A stretch of 36,342 bases of DNA from positions 1-36,342 of the forward strand of contig JAOAEV010000120.1 of the NCBI GenBank assembly GCA_026416585.1. Direction: 5' to 3'. Within the stretch, counting starts at the first letter, position 1, and every line of letters begins with the position of its first letter. Shown here one piece after another: positions 7,879 to 16,089 of the stretch. The position numbers and the translations under genes were made by a program. Below the pieces are notes generated by a model. The model saw nothing but the letters and a program-made list of their open reading frames with translations. It was not told the DNA's origin and searched no databases. This DNA is from Chlorobiota bacterium (GTDB lineage: Bacteria; Bacteroidota; Ignavibacteria; Kapaibacteriales; NICIL-2).

Positions 7879-9270
7879 ATGCGTTCATTAGCTCGATGGA
7901 TTGCACTTGCTGCCTGCCTTGTCTCAGCAAATGCACAGGTGCTATTGCCCTACGAACAGTTCGATAATGACGGTATTCCTCCTGAGGTATACAGACAGCG
8001 GCGCGAGCGCTTAGCTGCTGCACATAGTCCCCGCTCACTGATTGTGCTGCTGAGTGCTGACGTACGTAACCGCCAAAACGATGTGGACTACGAATACCGA
8101 CAGAATTCAAATCTGCTGTACTTGACTGGCTGCACAGAACCACGCTGTGCACTGGTAATAATTCCTGGCGGCACAACGTGGAACGGCGAACATATTACCG
8201 AGCTTTTGTTCATCCCACCGCGTAATCCTGACCGAGAGTTGTGGACAGGCGTGCGGATGGGTACCAACGAAGCCCAACAGCTACTTGGCATTCGTCCTAC
8301 GCTCGACTATGCAATGCTCGGTGAAGTACTCGACTCACTCTTAACTAATCGCGACACGCTCTATATCGCCTCTGGTTTGCCGACACCATCAGTCACAATA
8401 CCAATTGTGGGCAAGCCAATCGAAGTGGAACAACTTCTGCGCGACTCTCTCCAACGTCGGCATTCCGACCTTGTTGTGCGGACATCACTGCGTACACTCT
8501 CAATCATGCGTGAGGTCAAGGATGAGCACGAGTTGCGTTTATTACGTCGAGCTATCGGGATTACGCTTGATGCCTTTGAGCACGTGTTACGATCCGTACG
8601 GCCAGCAATGAATGAGTACGAAATCGAGGCGCTCATGGAGTACCACTTTCGCCGTGCTGGCGCTGAAGATGTTGGCTATCCGAGCATCGTTGGCAGTAGC
8701 TACAATAGTTGCATTTTGCATTACCAAAAGAATCGACGCCCAACAAAAGCAGGAGACCTGGTTCTTGCTGACTGTGGTGCAGAATATCATGGCTACACTG
8801 CAGACATCACACGCACTTTTCCCATTAGCGGGAAATTCAGTCCGGAGCAACGTGCGTTGTACCTTCTTGTGCTTGAAGCACAAGATTCTGCAATTGCTGC
8901 AGCACGCGTCGGTGCTCCCTTCCGCGCTACTCACCGTGCAGCAGAGTCGGTGATTGCTCGCGGACTTGTCGATCTCGGCATTATCGCGTCGCCGTCTGAG
9001 GTGCGGCGCTATTTCCCACACGGTACATCACACTATTTGGGTCTTGACGTCCATGATGCTGGCACATACGGTCCTTTGCGGGAGGGAACGGTTATTACTG
9101 TCGAGCCGGGGATTTATATACCACCCGGAAGCCCGTGTTCGGAGCGATGGTGGGGTATTGGTATCCGTATTGAGGACGACATTCTCGTCACTTCGAACGG
9201 TCCGGTAAATCTCTCGGCACAACTGGTGCGACATCCTGATCAAATCGAAGCGCTGATGCGTTCGCAATAA
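7879..9270 (+). CDS. Secreted Xaa-Pro aminopeptidase (aminopeptidase P family, M24B)
   Basis: Metallopeptidase that removes an N-terminal residue preceding proline. The 463-residue product starts with a signal peptide (about 20 residues, ending SANAQ), then an AMP_N domain (to about 170), then a pita-bread M24 domain. The dinuclear metal ligands are visible: Asp in VLADCGAEYHG, Asp in TADITRTFP, His in FPHGTSHYLG, Glu in ITVEPGIY, and Glu in GIRIEDDILV. The cytoplasmic E. coli PepP has no signal peptide, so this copy probably works in the periplasm or outside, in peptide feeding. It reads with yjbQ-comF as the last gene of a plus-strand run. Confidence 0.94.
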   Translation: MRSLARWIALAACLVSANAQVLLPYEQFDNDGIPPEVYRQRRERLAAAHSPRSLIVLLSADVRNRQNDVDYEYRQNSNLLYLTGCTEPRCALVIIPGGTTWNGEHITELLFIPPRNPDRELWTGVRMGTNEAQQLLGIRPTLDYAMLGEVLDSLLTNRDTLYIASGLPTPSVTIPIVGKPIEVEQLLRDSLQRRHSDLVVRTSLRTLSIMREVKDEHELRLLRRAIGITLDAFEHVLRSVRPAMNEYEIEALMEYHFRRAGAEDVGYPSIVGSSYNSCILHYQKNRRPTKAGDLVLADCGAEYHGYTADITRTFPISGKFSPEQRALYLLVLEAQDSAIAAARVGAPFRATHRAAESVIARGLVDLGIIASPSEVRRYFPHGTSHYLGLDVHDAGTYGPLREGTVITVEPGIYIPPGSPCSERWWGIGIRIEDDILVTSNGPVNLSAQLVRHPDQIEALMRSQ

Positions 9271-9323
9271 AGTGCCGCTGGATGAAAATGCAGCTTATCC
9301 ATCAATCGTATCTGACGTAAGCC

Positions 9324-9367
9324 ATCCTGAACACAAAATCGATCACCCTGAACCTGCTTCAGGATCT
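9324..9367. repeat. REP-like hairpin element overlapping the coaBC 3' end
   Basis: CCTGAA-CCTGC-TTCAGG (9347-9363) sits inside a larger inverted repeat, ATCCTGAA (9324-9331) with TTCAGGAT (9358-9365). The core resembles the CCCTGAACTTGTTTCAGG-type dispersed repeat I associate with many Bacteroidota genomes. Only this copy was seen. It supplies the last codons and stop of coaBC and may serve as the terminator between convergent pepP-like and coaBC genes. Confidence 0.45.
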
Positions 9368-10719
9368 TGCTTCCTGCGCAGAAGCGCTACGGCATCGTCA
9401 AGAACGTACTCTGCGCACACTCGCTTTGGAACGGGAGAATATTGTTTGCGGTGGATTTGTCCATTGCTAAAGGTAACAATCGTAATCGTGTTCAAGTCAC
9501 CCTCAAAGCCACTATCAGGAACATCAAATGCGTTGAGCACAGCGATATCGCATCCACGAGCATGAAGTTTTTCAATGCCACCATCGAGTTGATCACTGGA
9601 TTCGAGGGCAAAACCGACAAGCACCGAACGCGCCATTTTTGCCCGTCCTAACTCGCCAAGAATATCCGGTGTGCGAATAAGTTCGACAGCAATGCGGTCA
9701 CCAAGTACATTGCGTTTGAGCTTTCCCGAATACACATCGGCGGGCATGTAATCAGCAACTGCTGCAGCAGCAATGGCGATATCCCACTTGCCCTCGTAAC
9801 GCAAGACTGCATCGAACATCTGGCGAGCAGATTCAATCCGAACGATATCCACACCATCTGGTTGCGGCAGCGCAACTGGACCGCTGATAAGCACAACATG
9901 TGCACCTCGGTCGCGTGCAGCTTCCGCGAGTGCATACCCCATCTTCCCCGATGAGCGATTCGAAATGTACCGCACTGAATCAAGTGCTTCGCGGGTCGGT
10001 CCAGCTGTAATCAAAACCGTCTTCCCATCGAGTCGTGTAACGTCACCAGCTTTCAACTGAGCAAGCTCGATCTCCGCGGTTAGTCGGTCATGTTCGATTG
10101 CGGTCTGCAACGGCGTACTCGCGATCGCCCCCAGGTGGGGTGTACGTAATTCACGGCTGTGACTTGATAGCACCTGCACTAACTGCCTAAAAAGGGATTC
10201 TGGTTCCGGCATGCGCCCGGTGCCCCACAGTCCACTAGCAAGCTCACCTTCTTCAGGTTCAATGATAATGGCTCCATCCCGGCGGAGCTGTTCAGCGTTA
10301 CGAACAGTCGCAGGGTGCTCCCACATCGTTGTATCCATCGCCGGCGCAACAAGTAGAGGCGTCGGACGCGGAAGAGCTAATGCTAAACAGGCAACAACAG
10401 TATCGCACCCACCACATGCCAGCGAAGCGAGTGTCTGTGCACTACACGGAGCAATCAGCATTACGTCCGCCCAGTGTGCCCAGTGAATATGCCACGATCC
10501 ACCCTGCTGGATACGTTCATCGAACATATCCGTAGCAACTGATTCACCAGCGAGATTCCCCAATACCAGCGGCGAGACAAAGTGGCGTGCTGTTGGTGTC
10601 ATCGCCACGCGAACATCCGCACCTGCCTGGCGCAACAGGCGCACAAGCAACGGCGCCTTGTAGGCTGCGATACTACCACAGACACCAAGCAGAATGTGTT
10701 TTCCGTCAAGTCGTTCCAT
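9343..10719 (-). CDS. coaBC: Bifunctional phosphopantothenoylcysteine decarboxylase / phosphopantothenate-cysteine ligase
   Basis: Two consecutive steps of coenzyme A synthesis: CTP-dependent joining of 4'-phosphopantothenate to cysteine, then FMN-dependent decarboxylation. The 458-residue product has an N-terminal CoaC flavoprotein domain (GVCGSIAAYKA; the His of HIHWAHWAD; PCSAQT; PAMDTTMW, where an Asp replaces the Asn of E. coli Dfp). The C-terminal CoaB domain follows from about residue 220 (TAGPTREALD, ISNRSSGKMG, KLKRN with the catalytic-region Lys). A GTG at 10764 is in frame, but the ATG at 10719 begins directly before the conserved core. It lies just downstream of rpoZ, an arrangement typical of Bacteroidota/Chlorobiota. 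The last codons derive from a repeat-like hairpin. Confidence 0.95.
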   Translation of the reverse strand: MERLDGKHILLGVCGSIAAYKAPLLVRLLRQAGADVRVAMTPTARHFVSPLVLGNLAGESVATDMFDERIQQGGSWHIHWAHWADVMLIAPCSAQTLASLACGGCDTVVACLALALPRPTPLLVAPAMDTTMWEHPATVRNAEQLRRDGAIIIEPEEGELASGLWGTGRMPEPESLFRQLVQVLSSHSRELRTPHLGAIASTPLQTAIEHDRLTAEIELAQLKAGDVTRLDGKTVLITAGPTREALDSVRYISNRSSGKMGYALAEAARDRGAHVVLISGPVALPQPDGVDIVRIESARQMFDAVLRYEGKWDIAIAAAAVADYMPADVYSGKLKRNVLGDRIAVELIRTPDILGELGRAKMARSVLVGFALESSDQLDGGIEKLHARGCDIAVLNAFDVPDSGFEGDLNTITIVTFSNGQIHRKQYSPVPKRVCAEYVLDDAVALLRRKQDPEAGSG

Positions 10720-10794: not shown

Positions 10795-11160
10795 CTACTG
10801 CTGCTGTGATCCGGTAGAATACCACCAGCGAAGTTCACCATCCAACATTTCCCGCATCGCCAGGAATGTTGGTTTATGAATCTTGTCAAACTCACGGCTG
10901 ATCTGCAGCTTGTCGAAGTTGGTAACGTTTTCTTCCTCCGATTCTGCAAGGTCGGCAACCCGAGCCAGGTATTGATTGCGGATCTGGTCGTTAATCTGAC
11001 GCGCACGCAATCCAACGGAAACAATTGCTTCATAGAGCGAACCATGTTGCGAGGCGTGCATTTTGACTTCGATCGGATTGACCAGTTCAAAATGATTGAC
11101 GCTCATCTTCGGCACCGAGTAGTGAAATAACTGGTTGCAAAAATACGACGCACCGCTCAT
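10795..11160 (-). CDS. rpoZ: RNA polymerase omega subunit (RpoZ/Rpb6-like)
   Basis: Small subunit that assists RNA polymerase assembly and beta-prime folding. In 121 residues it shows the helix RARQINDQIRNQYLARV near residues 51-67, with the preceding YEAIVSVGL, matching the omega/Rpb6 core in the Bacteroidota form. It is recognised mainly by this core plus its place directly upstream of coaBC. The ATG at 11160 overlaps the TGA of the upstream outer-membrane gene (ATGA), which supports that start. An internal ATG at 11106 would give 103 residues, closer to a normal N terminus. The acidic ESEEEN stretch and the tail are variable in the family. Confidence 0.8.
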   Translation of the reverse strand: MSGASYFCNQLFHYSVPKMSVNHFELVNPIEVKMHASQHGSLYEAIVSVGLRARQINDQIRNQYLARVADLAESEEENVTNFDKLQISREFDKIHKPTFLAMREMLDGELRWWYSTGSQQQ

Positions 11161-11969
11161 CTAGATTGGCGCGCGAACGAGAGGGTCACAAACCACGTGG
11201 CAAGCTTTGTTCCACCACTTGTGGAGAAATCCGTAAGCGGGATTGAGTATTGGACACCAGGACGGAAGTGCCACGAGGACCACAGCTCAACACTTGCTTC
11301 CACCCGGAGGAACACATTCGCAGCAAAACGCTGCATACCGAGCACATCACCGTCGCGGACTACAGCCGAGGTTCCTCCATTGGACATCTGAAGCTCGACC
11401 TGTTCTCCGTTGGGCAAGCGCACCGTAGTCTGCGTCAACGATTTTGTGTGCCGCGCTTTCCCCAGAAACCACACCCCAAGCTGCGCACCGGTCATCAATG
11501 CTACTGATTCCGAGCCAAATGGCATCGTCCGCACATACGGCAGCGCGTGGATTCCAAACAATGTCAGATCGAGCTGTTGGCGGAATTCGACCGGAATACC
11601 GGCGTATTGTGCAGAGCCATCGCGTGATCTAAAGGTCAGCAATTCCTGCTCTCGGTAGCGGGATACAATGCTGCGATAGTCAACCGACCCCGCAATTCCC
11701 AACCGAAACAGTGGGCGTTCGGGTGCACGTAATTCGTAAAAAACACCGGCAGTCAGACCGCTGCCGCTTCCGCCGTGAAAAGGCGGACACTGGCACGTAT
11801 CGCGATACTCGCCCTGTTGCACGACAATGGGAATGCCGACAAAAACACCAGGATAGTCGTAGGTTTTTATCTCCGGCGCAATTGGAGAGGACTCTCCAAT
11901 GACCGGATGTTGCGCTACGAGCTCAACAGCAAGCATCACCGATAAGACGAGCACCACTGGCAATAGCAT
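11157..11969 (-). CDS. Predicted outer-membrane beta-barrel protein
   Basis: A 270-residue exported protein of unrecognised family. The first 20 residues form a signal peptide (hydrophobic LLPVVLVLSVMLAV, cleavage after VAQ). The rest alternates polar and hydrophobic residues in strand-length blocks, with Tyr/Phe-rich segments and a terminal strand, LATWFVTLSFARQSR, as in porin-like barrels. A small cysteine pair (DTCQCPP) lies near residue 60. A strong ribosome-binding site, GGAGG, precedes the ATG. Its stop overlaps the rpoZ start, so it heads a three-gene unit with rpoZ and coaBC. No substrate can be inferred. Confidence 0.72.
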   Translation of the reverse strand: MLLPVVLVLSVMLAVELVAQHPVIGESSPIAPEIKTYDYPGVFVGIPIVVQQGEYRDTCQCPPFHGGSGSGLTAGVFYELRAPERPLFRLGIAGSVDYRSIVSRYREQELLTFRSRDGSAQYAGIPVEFRQQLDLTLFGIHALPYVRTMPFGSESVALMTGAQLGVWFLGKARHTKSLTQTTVRLPNGEQVELQMSNGGTSAVVRDGDVLGMQRFAANVFLRVEASVELWSSWHFRPGVQYSIPLTDFSTSGGTKLATWFVTLSFARQSR

Positions 11970-12073: not shown

Positions 12074-13474
12074 ATGACAATGGACGAAATGACTAGCGAA
12101 CAATTGAACATTGTACCATCACTTGCGATACCGATCAATCAGCCACTGTTCGAGCAAGAAGGGGTGCGGAGCGTAGCAGTACGAAGTCTGCTGCGCATCG
12201 AGCAGACTTCACTGAGTTCCGAGCACGTTGTATCGGCAGAAATTGCTGCACATCCTGAATGGACCGAGTTTGACCGTGCACTCTATCAGGAACTGGTCTT
12301 CGGCACACTTCGGTGGCGTGCCAAGCTCGACTGGATACTGACTGGATTCTATCACGGTGAATTTTCCAAGTGTATGCCCGTCATACAGGAAACCCTCCGT
12401 GTGGCGCTCTACCAAATTCTGATGATCTCCAAAGTCTCACCGCAAATTGCTATCGAAAGCGCTGGACGAATCATCGAACGTACACGCGATACAGAGTACG
12501 CTTCCAGACTTGTTGGCGTTCTTCGGGGCATTGCGCGAAACGTTGCTGGTATCCGCTATCCGCCTCAAGAGCAACTTCCGTTGTACATGCACGTAGTGTA
12601 CTCGCACCCACTGTGGCTTGTTCAGCGATGGATCGAACGGTATGGTGAAGAAATCGCTCAACAGATGCTTGCGGCAAATTTGGAACGCCCTCCTGTTTTT
12701 TTAGCAAGCAACAGCCTTCGTGCATCGCTTGACACACTGATTGCTGAGCTGCAGCAGATGGCGATACCACTGGAAACAATACCCACCAACCCACCACTGT
12801 TGCGAATCAATCCGTTTGCTGACTACACTCACTTTGATGTATGGCAGCGCGGGATGTGCTATACAAGCGATCCCATCTGGTCAGCAGCCGCAGCCGTGAT
12901 CGCTCAGTACACTGAGGGCGATGTGCTTTATGCATGCACAAACCTGAGCCGCACACTTCTTCCATTTATAGAGCTCACGCAAAAAGCGAACCGCCTCTTA
13001 ACGCTGCACACGTCTTTACCCGTCCTTCCAGGATGGCTTCACCGTGAGTGCACCCGACTTGGGTGGCAATTGCCACCGCTTTTGACTGATTTGTCACCAG
13101 AAAGTGTCAGTACAATTGTTATCGAAACGCCGTCGAGTGGAATTGGGCTATGGCGACGTCAACCGGAGCGTAAGTGGCGTTCCGACTCTATAGACATTCA
13201 CCGCTCTACCCGGCGCGCATTGGAATTGATTGAACAAGTGCTCCCATCGCTCAAAACTGGAGGACATGTGCTGCTGCTGACACTCTCGACCGAGCAGGAA
13301 GAAACCGATTCACTCGTCGAATGGATGTGTGTAAGACAAGGTGGATTCCGCCGCGTTCCCCTCGAGATGGATGCTTTCACGTCTGCATTTCGCCGTAATA
13401 ATGGATCACTGCTCTCACTGCCTCACCTGCATCGTGGCGACACAGTGTATGTTTCACTTGTTGAAAAACACTAA
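12074..13474 (+). CDS. RsmB-like protein with degenerate methyltransferase site (pseudoenzyme)
   Basis: A 466-residue protein with the architecture of RsmB, the 16S rRNA m5C967 methyltransferase: an N-terminal NusB-like helical domain (about 30-165), a linker domain with HPLWLVQRW (about 178-186), and a C-terminal Rossmann domain. The C-terminal half aligns end to end with RsmB, but the active site is gone. The SAM loop LCAAPGGKT reads ACTNLSRTL (287-295). DAPCSG reads ETPSSG (351-356), with Ser354 in place of the Cys. YATCS reads LLTLS (401-405), with Leu404 in place of the nucleophile. The remaining frame (RRQPERKW, PSLKTGG) is conserved and has no stops, so the protein is probably retained for RNA or NusB-type binding. 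Its stop overlaps the next start (TAATG). ATG at 12080 is an alternative start. Confidence 0.85.
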   Translation: MTMDEMTSEQLNIVPSLAIPINQPLFEQEGVRSVAVRSLLRIEQTSLSSEHVVSAEIAAHPEWTEFDRALYQELVFGTLRWRAKLDWILTGFYHGEFSKCMPVIQETLRVALYQILMISKVSPQIAIESAGRIIERTRDTEYASRLVGVLRGIARNVAGIRYPPQEQLPLYMHVVYSHPLWLVQRWIERYGEEIAQQMLAANLERPPVFLASNSLRASLDTLIAELQQMAIPLETIPTNPPLLRINPFADYTHFDVWQRGMCYTSDPIWSAAAAVIAQYTEGDVLYACTNLSRTLLPFIELTQKANRLLTLHTSLPVLPGWLHRECTRLGWQLPPLLTDLSPESVSTIVIETPSSGIGLWRRQPERKWRSDSIDIHRSTRRALELIEQVLPSLKTGGHVLLLTLSTEQEETDSLVEWMCVRQGGFRRVPLEMDAFTSAFRRNNGSLLSLPHLHRGDTVYVSLVEKH

Positions 13475-16089
13475 TGATAGTTTGGATCAGTTGTTTTGCT
13501 GTGGTGGTAGTAGCCGCATATCCACAGCAGTGGCACGAAGCATCACCGCTCGACCGGCAACAGTGGTATATCCTCCGCTACCGCGATCCGCAAACTGGCA
13601 CGATACCGGCACACGCAGCAGAAAATGATGCTGCCATGGCACGCCGAATCGCAAGTACCGTGTACTCGAAGCAACCACACATAGCCTCAACGACCGTCGA
13701 GCCGATCGGTCCTATCAACGTTGCTGGACGTACCCGAGCATTTGCAATTGATAGCCGTGCACCATCGGTATTCATGTGCGGTGGTGTCAGTGGTGGTGTA
13801 TGGCGCAGCATTGATGCAGGGCGCTCGTGGGTACGCATGACACCACCGGACTTAGTACCACACGTCTCCTCCATTGTGCAAAGTCAGAAAACGCCTGATA
13901 CGTGGTACATCGGCACTGGCGAAGGTCTCTCGACTACTGAGCGCCGGACATCTACACTGTTGCGCACGATAGGTACAGGAACAGGCATCTATCGCTCAAC
14001 GAACAATGGAATAACGTGGCATGCAATTACGCCACCGTCGAACGCACAACCAAACTCAATTCCGGAGAGCCCATGGCAGATCATTTGGCGTTTGGCAGTT
14101 CGCTCTGATTCTTCAGGCGAAACGCTCTACGCGGCATGCTATGGTGGCATTTACTCATGGGACGGCAATCGCTGGCGCTTGGAGCTGGGCGATACATCCC
14201 GACCTGCCTTTGCCACAGACATTGTCTCAGCTGGCAATAAGCTCTATGCTGCACTCGGTGCGGCCGATGACGGCAGTCGTTCTCAACAATACGGCATTTT
14301 TGAATGGAGCGGCGGACGGTGGCGCGCTATCACGCCGGCTGCATTCTCAACGATGCGGCGAATCGTCCTCGCAACAAGCACTGATGGCTCGGTGGTGTAT
14401 GCATTCGCACAAGCACCATCGTCATGGAGCGAGCGTTACATAAGCTTTTCCTCTGTGCACCAGCTCTGGCAATATTCTGCTCTTCAGCAACGGTGGCGCG
14501 ATTGCTCATCGTGGCTTGCGGCGCTCCGTTCGCCGATCGCACCATTTGGAACGCTCGGCGGATACTGCATGGCAATCGCGGTTCACCCGAGAAACCCAGA
14601 CATCGTGTACATTGGAGGCACCGATGTTTTCTCTTCCCATGATGGATGCCGAACGTCAGCATATCACCTTGGAGGTTACCCATACACGGTCGAACCGAGT
14701 GCACTTCATCCAGATATCCATGCGCTCGTGTTCGATCGAGTCGATCCCAACCGCGTTTATGCAGCTACCGATGGTGGCGTCTATGCGACATCCTCGGCGC
14801 TGGCACAAGACAGTCCAGAATGGGAATCTCTCAACACAGGACTGATGACCACGCAAGCCTACCACGTCGCTATTGATCGGAGAAGTTTGGATCAATTCGT
14901 AATCGCAGGATTCCAAGACAACAGCAATTGGTACACAAACGCTGCCGCTCTCGGCATACCATGGGTATTTGCTGGTGGTGGCGATGGATGCAGGGTTTTA
15001 GTCGGTCAAGGACGGGGATTGGTTTTTGCCAGTTCACAGTTTGGCTACATTTATGCTCTCGATGCACGCCCAGAAACGCCACGGTACATCCAACTTCCAC
15101 AACCACCTCGAAGTGGTTCAGCATTCGCCACCGAGTTTGGCTACGATCCGGCAACGGGGTACTTGGTGTTAGCACTGGACAGTCAACTTTACCGGCTATA
15201 TGTGACGCCCACTGTAGTCGATCAGCGGTGGGAATTAGCAGCATCCTTGCCTTACGGCACACTGATCACAACACTTACTCTCCGTGGAGAGTTAGCGCTC
15301 GTCGGTACAGCATCCGGTACGTTATACATTGCAGACATTTATCGAGGCTATATCGAACCGATATCTGTTCCGCTACCACGAGGAGCGTTTGTTTCGGCGA
15401 TAGATTGGGATGAAGCTGACATCAGTCGAATTATCGTTACAGTATCTAACTACACACTTCCAAGCATTTTTGCGACGTGGGACAGTGGAGAATCATGGCT
15501 ATCTGTTGGCGGAACACTCGACGAAGAGCAGAATGGGTGGGGGCCATCTCTCCGTGTGGTGCGTTCTCTCTACCGTAACGGGAAACGGCTTTATGTGGCA
15601 GGCACCAGTATCGGTGCATTCGTCGCCGATTCGCTCAGTGCATCAACGCAATGGCAACCACTCGGAGTAACCACACTCGGCTTTTTGCCTGTCGAAGCCA
15701 TTGATATTCGATCTACCGACGGGATGACTGCTATCGGGACACATGGTGGTGGCATTTACGTATGTTACCTTGATCCCAGCACAGTCGGAAGCGAACAACC
15801 AGCGCCACCAAAGGACTTCTTCGTCGAGCGTTGTGTGCCGGAGCCTGTGAGCGATTTTGCAATCGTGTATGTTCACGTACCACGTCCCGAGGGCATTCTG
15901 ACCTTCGAGTTGTATGATATTTTGGGTCGCCCGATTAGCGAGCGTTCACAACCGGTTGTCACCCCTGGCGTAGTTGCAATGATGCTGGGACCTGCCGACC
16001 TTGATGGCATCGCTCAGGGAACGTACTTTTACCGGGTTCGGTGGAAGGATCGAATCGCCAGTGGTGCATTTGTACGAGTAGCACGATAA
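13474..16089 (+). CDS. Secreted Asp-box (BNR/sortilin-like) beta-propeller protein with T9SS sorting domain
   Basis: An 871-residue exported protein. A short hydrophobic start (WISCFAVVVVAA) acts as signal peptide. The body has repeated Asp-boxes of the S-x-D-x-G-x-x-W type: RSIDAGRSW near residue 112, RSTNNGITW near 175, SSHDGCRTS near 389, and TWDSGESW near 668. These are typical of sortilin/BNR propellers found in glycosidases and surface adhesins. The last 85 residues form a type A T9SS tail (FELYDILGRPI, then GTYFYRVRW). It should therefore cross the outer membrane and be released or anchored. No catalytic motif was recognised. Its start overlaps the stop of the RsmB-like gene by one base, so the two are coupled. 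Confidence 0.84.
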   Translation: MIVWISCFAVVVVAAYPQQWHEASPLDRQQWYILRYRDPQTGTIPAHAAENDAAMARRIASTVYSKQPHIASTTVEPIGPINVAGRTRAFAIDSRAPSVFMCGGVSGGVWRSIDAGRSWVRMTPPDLVPHVSSIVQSQKTPDTWYIGTGEGLSTTERRTSTLLRTIGTGTGIYRSTNNGITWHAITPPSNAQPNSIPESPWQIIWRLAVRSDSSGETLYAACYGGIYSWDGNRWRLELGDTSRPAFATDIVSAGNKLYAALGAADDGSRSQQYGIFEWSGGRWRAITPAAFSTMRRIVLATSTDGSVVYAFAQAPSSWSERYISFSSVHQLWQYSALQQRWRDCSSWLAALRSPIAPFGTLGGYCMAIAVHPRNPDIVYIGGTDVFSSHDGCRTSAYHLGGYPYTVEPSALHPDIHALVFDRVDPNRVYAATDGGVYATSSALAQDSPEWESLNTGLMTTQAYHVAIDRRSLDQFVIAGFQDNSNWYTNAAALGIPWVFAGGGDGCRVLVGQGRGLVFASSQFGYIYALDARPETPRYIQLPQPPRSGSAFATEFGYDPATGYLVLALDSQLYRLYVTPTVVDQRWELAASLPYGTLITTLTLRGELALVGTASGTLYIADIYRGYIEPISVPLPRGAFVSAIDWDEADISRIIVTVSNYTLPSIFATWDSGESWLSVGGTLDEEQNGWGPSLRVVRSLYRNGKRLYVAGTSIGAFVADSLSASTQWQPLGVTTLGFLPVEAIDIRSTDGMTAIGTHGGGIYVCYLDPSTVGSEQPAPPKDFFVERCVPEPVSDFAIVYVHVPRPEGILTFELYDILGRPISERSQPVVTPGVVAMMLGPADLDGIAQGTYFYRVRWKDRIASGAFVRVAR

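Follow-up and report, generated by a model that had tools for sequence, protein, structure and literature searches.

Why would a gene for an RsmB-like protein persist as a full-length reading frame once the residues for catalysis are gone from it? This question is raised by positions 12074-13474 (+) of the window, i.e., the whole 36,342-nucleotide stretch analysed here, which comes from a member of Candidatus Kapabacteria. The gene is complete, with 466 codons, a frame that is open throughout and a TAA stop. It bears on a standing question, namely whether it is the methyl group or the binding to the precursor ribosome for which rRNA methyltransferases are retained, and this has so far been approached mainly through catalytic mutants (Nop2, Dim1). 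Named relatives of the host are Candidatus Kapabacteria/Kapaibacterium, the nearest being MAGs such as KatS3mg039, KatS3mg040, SKYG14 and SKW43, and its GTDB-like family comprises 8 genomes in 3 genera.

Catalytic site and predicted fold

The domain order is that of RsmB/Fmu, the 16S rRNA m5C967 methyltransferase (TIGR00563, 1SQF/1SQG), i.e., NusB, ferredoxin-like and Rossmann, and all three Pfam domains required for an RsmB are present. The NusB-like helical domain (residues 31-155, 12164-12538 (+)) matches Pfam NusB with an E-value of 1e-16, and the ferredoxin-like RNA-binding domain (residues 178-245, 12605-12808 (+)) matches PF22458 (RsmF-B_ferredox) with 7.5e-13. The third match, Methyltr_RsmB-F at residues 343-462 (E 2.6e-12), begins only at profile position 78, and the SAM-loop third of the profile is unrecognisable. 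TIGR00563 (rsmB) aligns over residues 32-465 with 119 bits, which is below the equivalog cutoff of 269 bits. The protein is neither a stand-alone NusB (TIGR01951, 32 bits against a cutoff of 88) nor an RsmF (m5C1407; 21 bits against 588), having a NusB domain instead. An AlphaFold model built with an alignment of 40 sequences has a mean pLDDT of 90.9, with disorder confined to residues 1-23, and sequence conservation likewise sets in at about residue 23. Its best Foldseek matches, PH0851 (2YXL) and the SAM-bound and SAM-free forms of E. coli Fmu/RsmB (1SQF/1SQG), extend over the full length (TM 0.77-0.87 over about 450 columns), and thus the whole RsmB fold is predicted to be preserved.

What sets the protein apart from RsmB/Fmu is its catalytic site. 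The original prediction had read three degenerate motifs by eye, and the alignment confirms all of them. The former SAM-binding glycine loop (residues 287-295, 12932-12958 (+)) reads ACTNLSRTL where intact proteins have LCAAPGGKA, the former motif IV (residues 351-356, 13124-13141 (+)) reads ETPSSG instead of DAPCSG, and the former motif VI (residues 401-405, 13274-13288 (+)) reads LLTLS instead of YSTCT. The release cysteine of motif IV is replaced by serine (Ser354) in every family member read, and the nucleophilic cysteine of motif VI (TCS/TCT) by Leu404 in the window protein. Judged from these positions, the window protein is a pseudoenzyme that has lost both catalytic cysteines and the SAM-binding loop. 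It also lacks the motif III acid and the majority of the remaining near-invariant residues in the SAM half. Among 99 positions that are at least 93% conserved in intact RsmBs, the family has lost 51 and kept 48, and the kept positions cluster towards the N-terminus, where 35 of the 50 positions up to residue 246 remain vs 13 of the 49 beyond it (Fisher p 2e-5). The clearest C-terminal element retained is the flank of the dead motif IV, SSGIGLWRRxPExKWRxDS, whose basic stretch RRQPERKW (residues 361-368, 13154-13177 (+)) lies next to the former active site and is almost invariant in the genus. This flank, the glutamates retained in the family at 407 and 410 and the intact predicted fold are what one could cite for a protein that is still catalytic through unusual chemistry or an unusual SAM pocket. 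But such activity is scarcely credible, as the six complete family members have L, A, A, A, S or P where the nucleophile should be, and have also lost, or keep only inconsistently, the glycines and the lysine of the loop and the acid of motif III.

Descent of the locus

The losses are not peculiar to one assembly. They are common to all six complete family orthologs, which lie at one syntenic locus, and in a seventh family genome (G007), where the gene is split into two pieces on two contig ends, the C-terminal piece carries the same losses. Relatives retaining the cysteines would have reduced the case to a local change, and none was found among these orthologs. Since the losses recur in independent assemblies, two single-contig genomes included, sequencing error and local mutation are ruled out. 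Absence of the gene from G002 is uninformative, its 6337-base contig stopping inside the gene for the neighbouring 871-aa protein. Outside the family, all 74 readable orthologs in a GTDB scan retain all three motifs. In the maximum-likelihood tree, the family forms one clade (98/95) within the RsmB orthologs of the order, far from the two intact paralogs described below.

The gene's surroundings point the same way. The divergently transcribed neighbour (11157-11969 (-), 270 aa), which is without a Pfam match but probably BamD-like by gene order, has homologues that adjoin intact rsmB in many order relatives, and the window locus is therefore the ancestral rsmB locus. By clade and by locus alike, the window protein takes the place of the RsmB ortholog; it truly descends from the RsmB of the order by vertical inheritance, with a single loss in the family's ancestor. 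Downstream, the gene for an 871-aa protein with weak BNR/Asp-box similarity (13474-16089 (+)) overlaps the stop codon of the pseudoenzyme gene by one base (TAATG). It adjoins the pseudoenzyme gene in the five genus members with a full locus, was not found next to it in genus g2 (G006), and is probably co-transcribed with it.

A second degenerate RsmB occurs in another family of the order (L066, G023:C53, about 8719-9999). Its SAM loop reads LGSRSGSAA and its motif VI TRS instead of TCS (Cys to Arg), while the cysteine of motif IV is kept. The first tree grouped L066 with the window family, but this grouping is doubtful because of long branches, and the AU test does not reject a placement in family f9, to which it belongs (p 0.43). 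L066 is probably an independent loss at an earlier stage. A change of just the release cysteine is often harmful, as noted for Nop2 (PMC4510066), so the nucleophile is expected to be lost first, an order into which L066 would fit.

Two further observations were made among the order's RsmB sequences. Matches to RsmB/F in G031, G053 and G057 are only weak, and an rsmB ortholog may be absent there altogether. In family f7 (L015, L025, L027, L030, L032, L033, L056, L057 and L060), the frame is open for ~170-320 codons upstream, extending the RsmB frames to 613-759 aa, possibly by an N-terminal fusion or a chance open frame.

Selection and intact paralogs

Congeners are 50-58% identical over the whole protein, with synonymous sites near saturation. 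As saturation precludes a formal dN/dS at such divergence, the analysis is confined to pN/pS and a neutral simulation. Overall pN is far below pS. The NusB domain is the best conserved part (mean identity 71% between congeners), with a pN of 0.16-0.22 against a saturated pS of about 0.7-0.8. When family pairs were compared by region with intact RsmB pairs whose NusB identity is similar, the family was more conserved in the ferredoxin domain (59% vs 42%), equally so in motif IV (62% vs 65%), and less so in the SAM half (34% vs 47%). Purifying selection thus acts strongly on the NusB and ferredoxin domains and on motif IV, but has relaxed in the SAM half. In the simulation, a frame of 466 codons drifting neutrally acquired about 5 in-frame stops at 0.1 substitutions/site and about 18 at 1. 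The low pN in the NusB domain and a frame without these expected stops uphold the original claim of a maintained pseudoenzyme rather than a decaying gene. A slow, ongoing decay of a dispensable rRNA methyltransferase, caught before its frame breaks, would account for the relaxed SAM half (29-52% identity) and would agree with the order genomes that have no clear rsmB ortholog (G031, G053 and G057). It is nevertheless very improbable, given one old loss common to three genera whose synonymous divergence is saturated and whose complete frames are all open, where drift should have left several stops, and given the tight constraint that persists on the other three regions.

The conservation of the NusB domain, which is also fully recognised by Pfam, raises the prospect that the protein is kept for this half as a NusB substitute, acting together with NusA/NusE/NusG in rRNA antitermination or in the binding of boxA. 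The original prediction had likewise allowed for a NusB-like factor. This part of it fared poorly, since the seven tested genomes that carry the pseudoenzyme gene all encode a free-standing NusB as well, which rules out replacement of a missing NusB. What the protein shares with NusB is its N-terminal helical domain, and such a role would not require the ferredoxin domain and motif IV to be conserved. The order's intact RsmBs conserve the NusB domain too. We hence hold a NusB-like function to be improbable, and RNA binding or assembly to be likelier.

The window genome also encodes two further RsmB/F-type proteins with all motifs intact, as had been looked for after the original prediction. 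Both are retained in the eight family genomes read, and RsmD (TIGR00095 family), the modifier of the adjoining base 966, is also kept. The paralogs occur in other families as well, including order relatives with an active RsmB, and family members have three RsmB/F-type genes each, the same number as relatives in f2 and f9. As the paralogs are not family-specific and the number of genes is not raised (the count of RsmF-B ferredoxin genes is likewise unchanged), no compensation by a family-specific duplicate is seen. A different connection to the paralogs would be that of a prozyme-like regulatory partner, the dead protein guiding or activating an intact RsmB/F, perhaps for methylation of C967. 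RsmB is monomeric, and the paralogs that accompany an active RsmB in order relatives leave no mark of co-evolution. Such a partnership is therefore unlikely, even with both paralogs kept throughout the family and with pairs of dead and active proteins known elsewhere, e.g., the AdoMetDC prozyme of trypanosomes (PMC6221367) and Mettl17, which is required for methylation by Mettl15 (PMC11785013).

A putative role in 30S assembly

The reading that we favour, with somewhat better than even confidence, is that this RsmB descendant acts as a non-catalytic RNA-binding factor in 30S assembly, the assembly role being suggested by analogy. In the ancestor of one Kapabacteria family, RsmB lost both catalytic cysteines and presumably methyl-donor binding with them, and the catalytically dead protein was then retained in a non-catalytic capacity. 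Most likely it has kept its hold on the pre-30S particle, at helix 31 or close to it, where the NusB-like domain, the ferredoxin-like domain and the basic flank that is retained beside motif IV, RRxPERKWR, would make the contact, and it may serve as an assembly or quality-control factor without methylation. We infer three points here: that SAM is unbound, that the partner is helix 31 or the 30S, and that the role is in assembly. The ferredoxin domain and the motif IV flank presumably bind RNA, as we take members of this protein family generally to do. The ferredoxin region shows no increase in net charge (about -2 to +1), and a wholly different partner could have been acquired. In G007, the 16S rRNA at site 967 reads GATGCAAC, so C967 is present there. 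16S rRNA was not found in the genus genomes G001-G006, single-contig ones included, possibly due to masked stretches, and a 393-base 5' piece in G000 is the sole 16S read from the genus.

Several studied systems offer parallels for an assembly role. Deletion of rsmB in E. coli leads to the accumulation of 17S precursor, and RsmB, which acts on an early intermediate, has been proposed to help in the early steps of 30S assembly (PMC7056703). In yeast, growth and the processing of pre-rRNA are still supported by a Nop2 in which both cysteines are mutated (PMC4510066), and the assembly role of NSUN4 is separate from methylation (PMC3916286). Nop2/NSUN1 and NSUN4 would thus share with the window protein an m5C-methyltransferase fold and a methylation-independent role in ribosome assembly (PMC4510066, PMC3916286), but they are still active enzymes in nature, whereas the activity of the window family has apparently been lost by evolution. 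Mettl17 is also a mitoribosomal assembly factor with a methyltransferase fold, for which methyltransferase activity is evidenced in no organism (PMC11785013). It differs in belonging to an unrelated methyltransferase subfamily and in its Fe-S cluster, and SAM is reported in the T. brucei protein.

No described inactive RsmB was found in the open-access literature, and an automatic annotation as RsmB would mislead for the window family. A bolder version, in which a core rRNA-modifying enzyme has become a dedicated structural factor with partners of its own, possibly steering an intact paralog, and in which G023 is independently doing likewise, seems to us unlikely. If true, nature would have split the structural role of RsmB from its chemical one. 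A bacterial family that has the RsmB scaffold but not its chemistry is natural evidence for a selected, non-catalytic role of RsmB.
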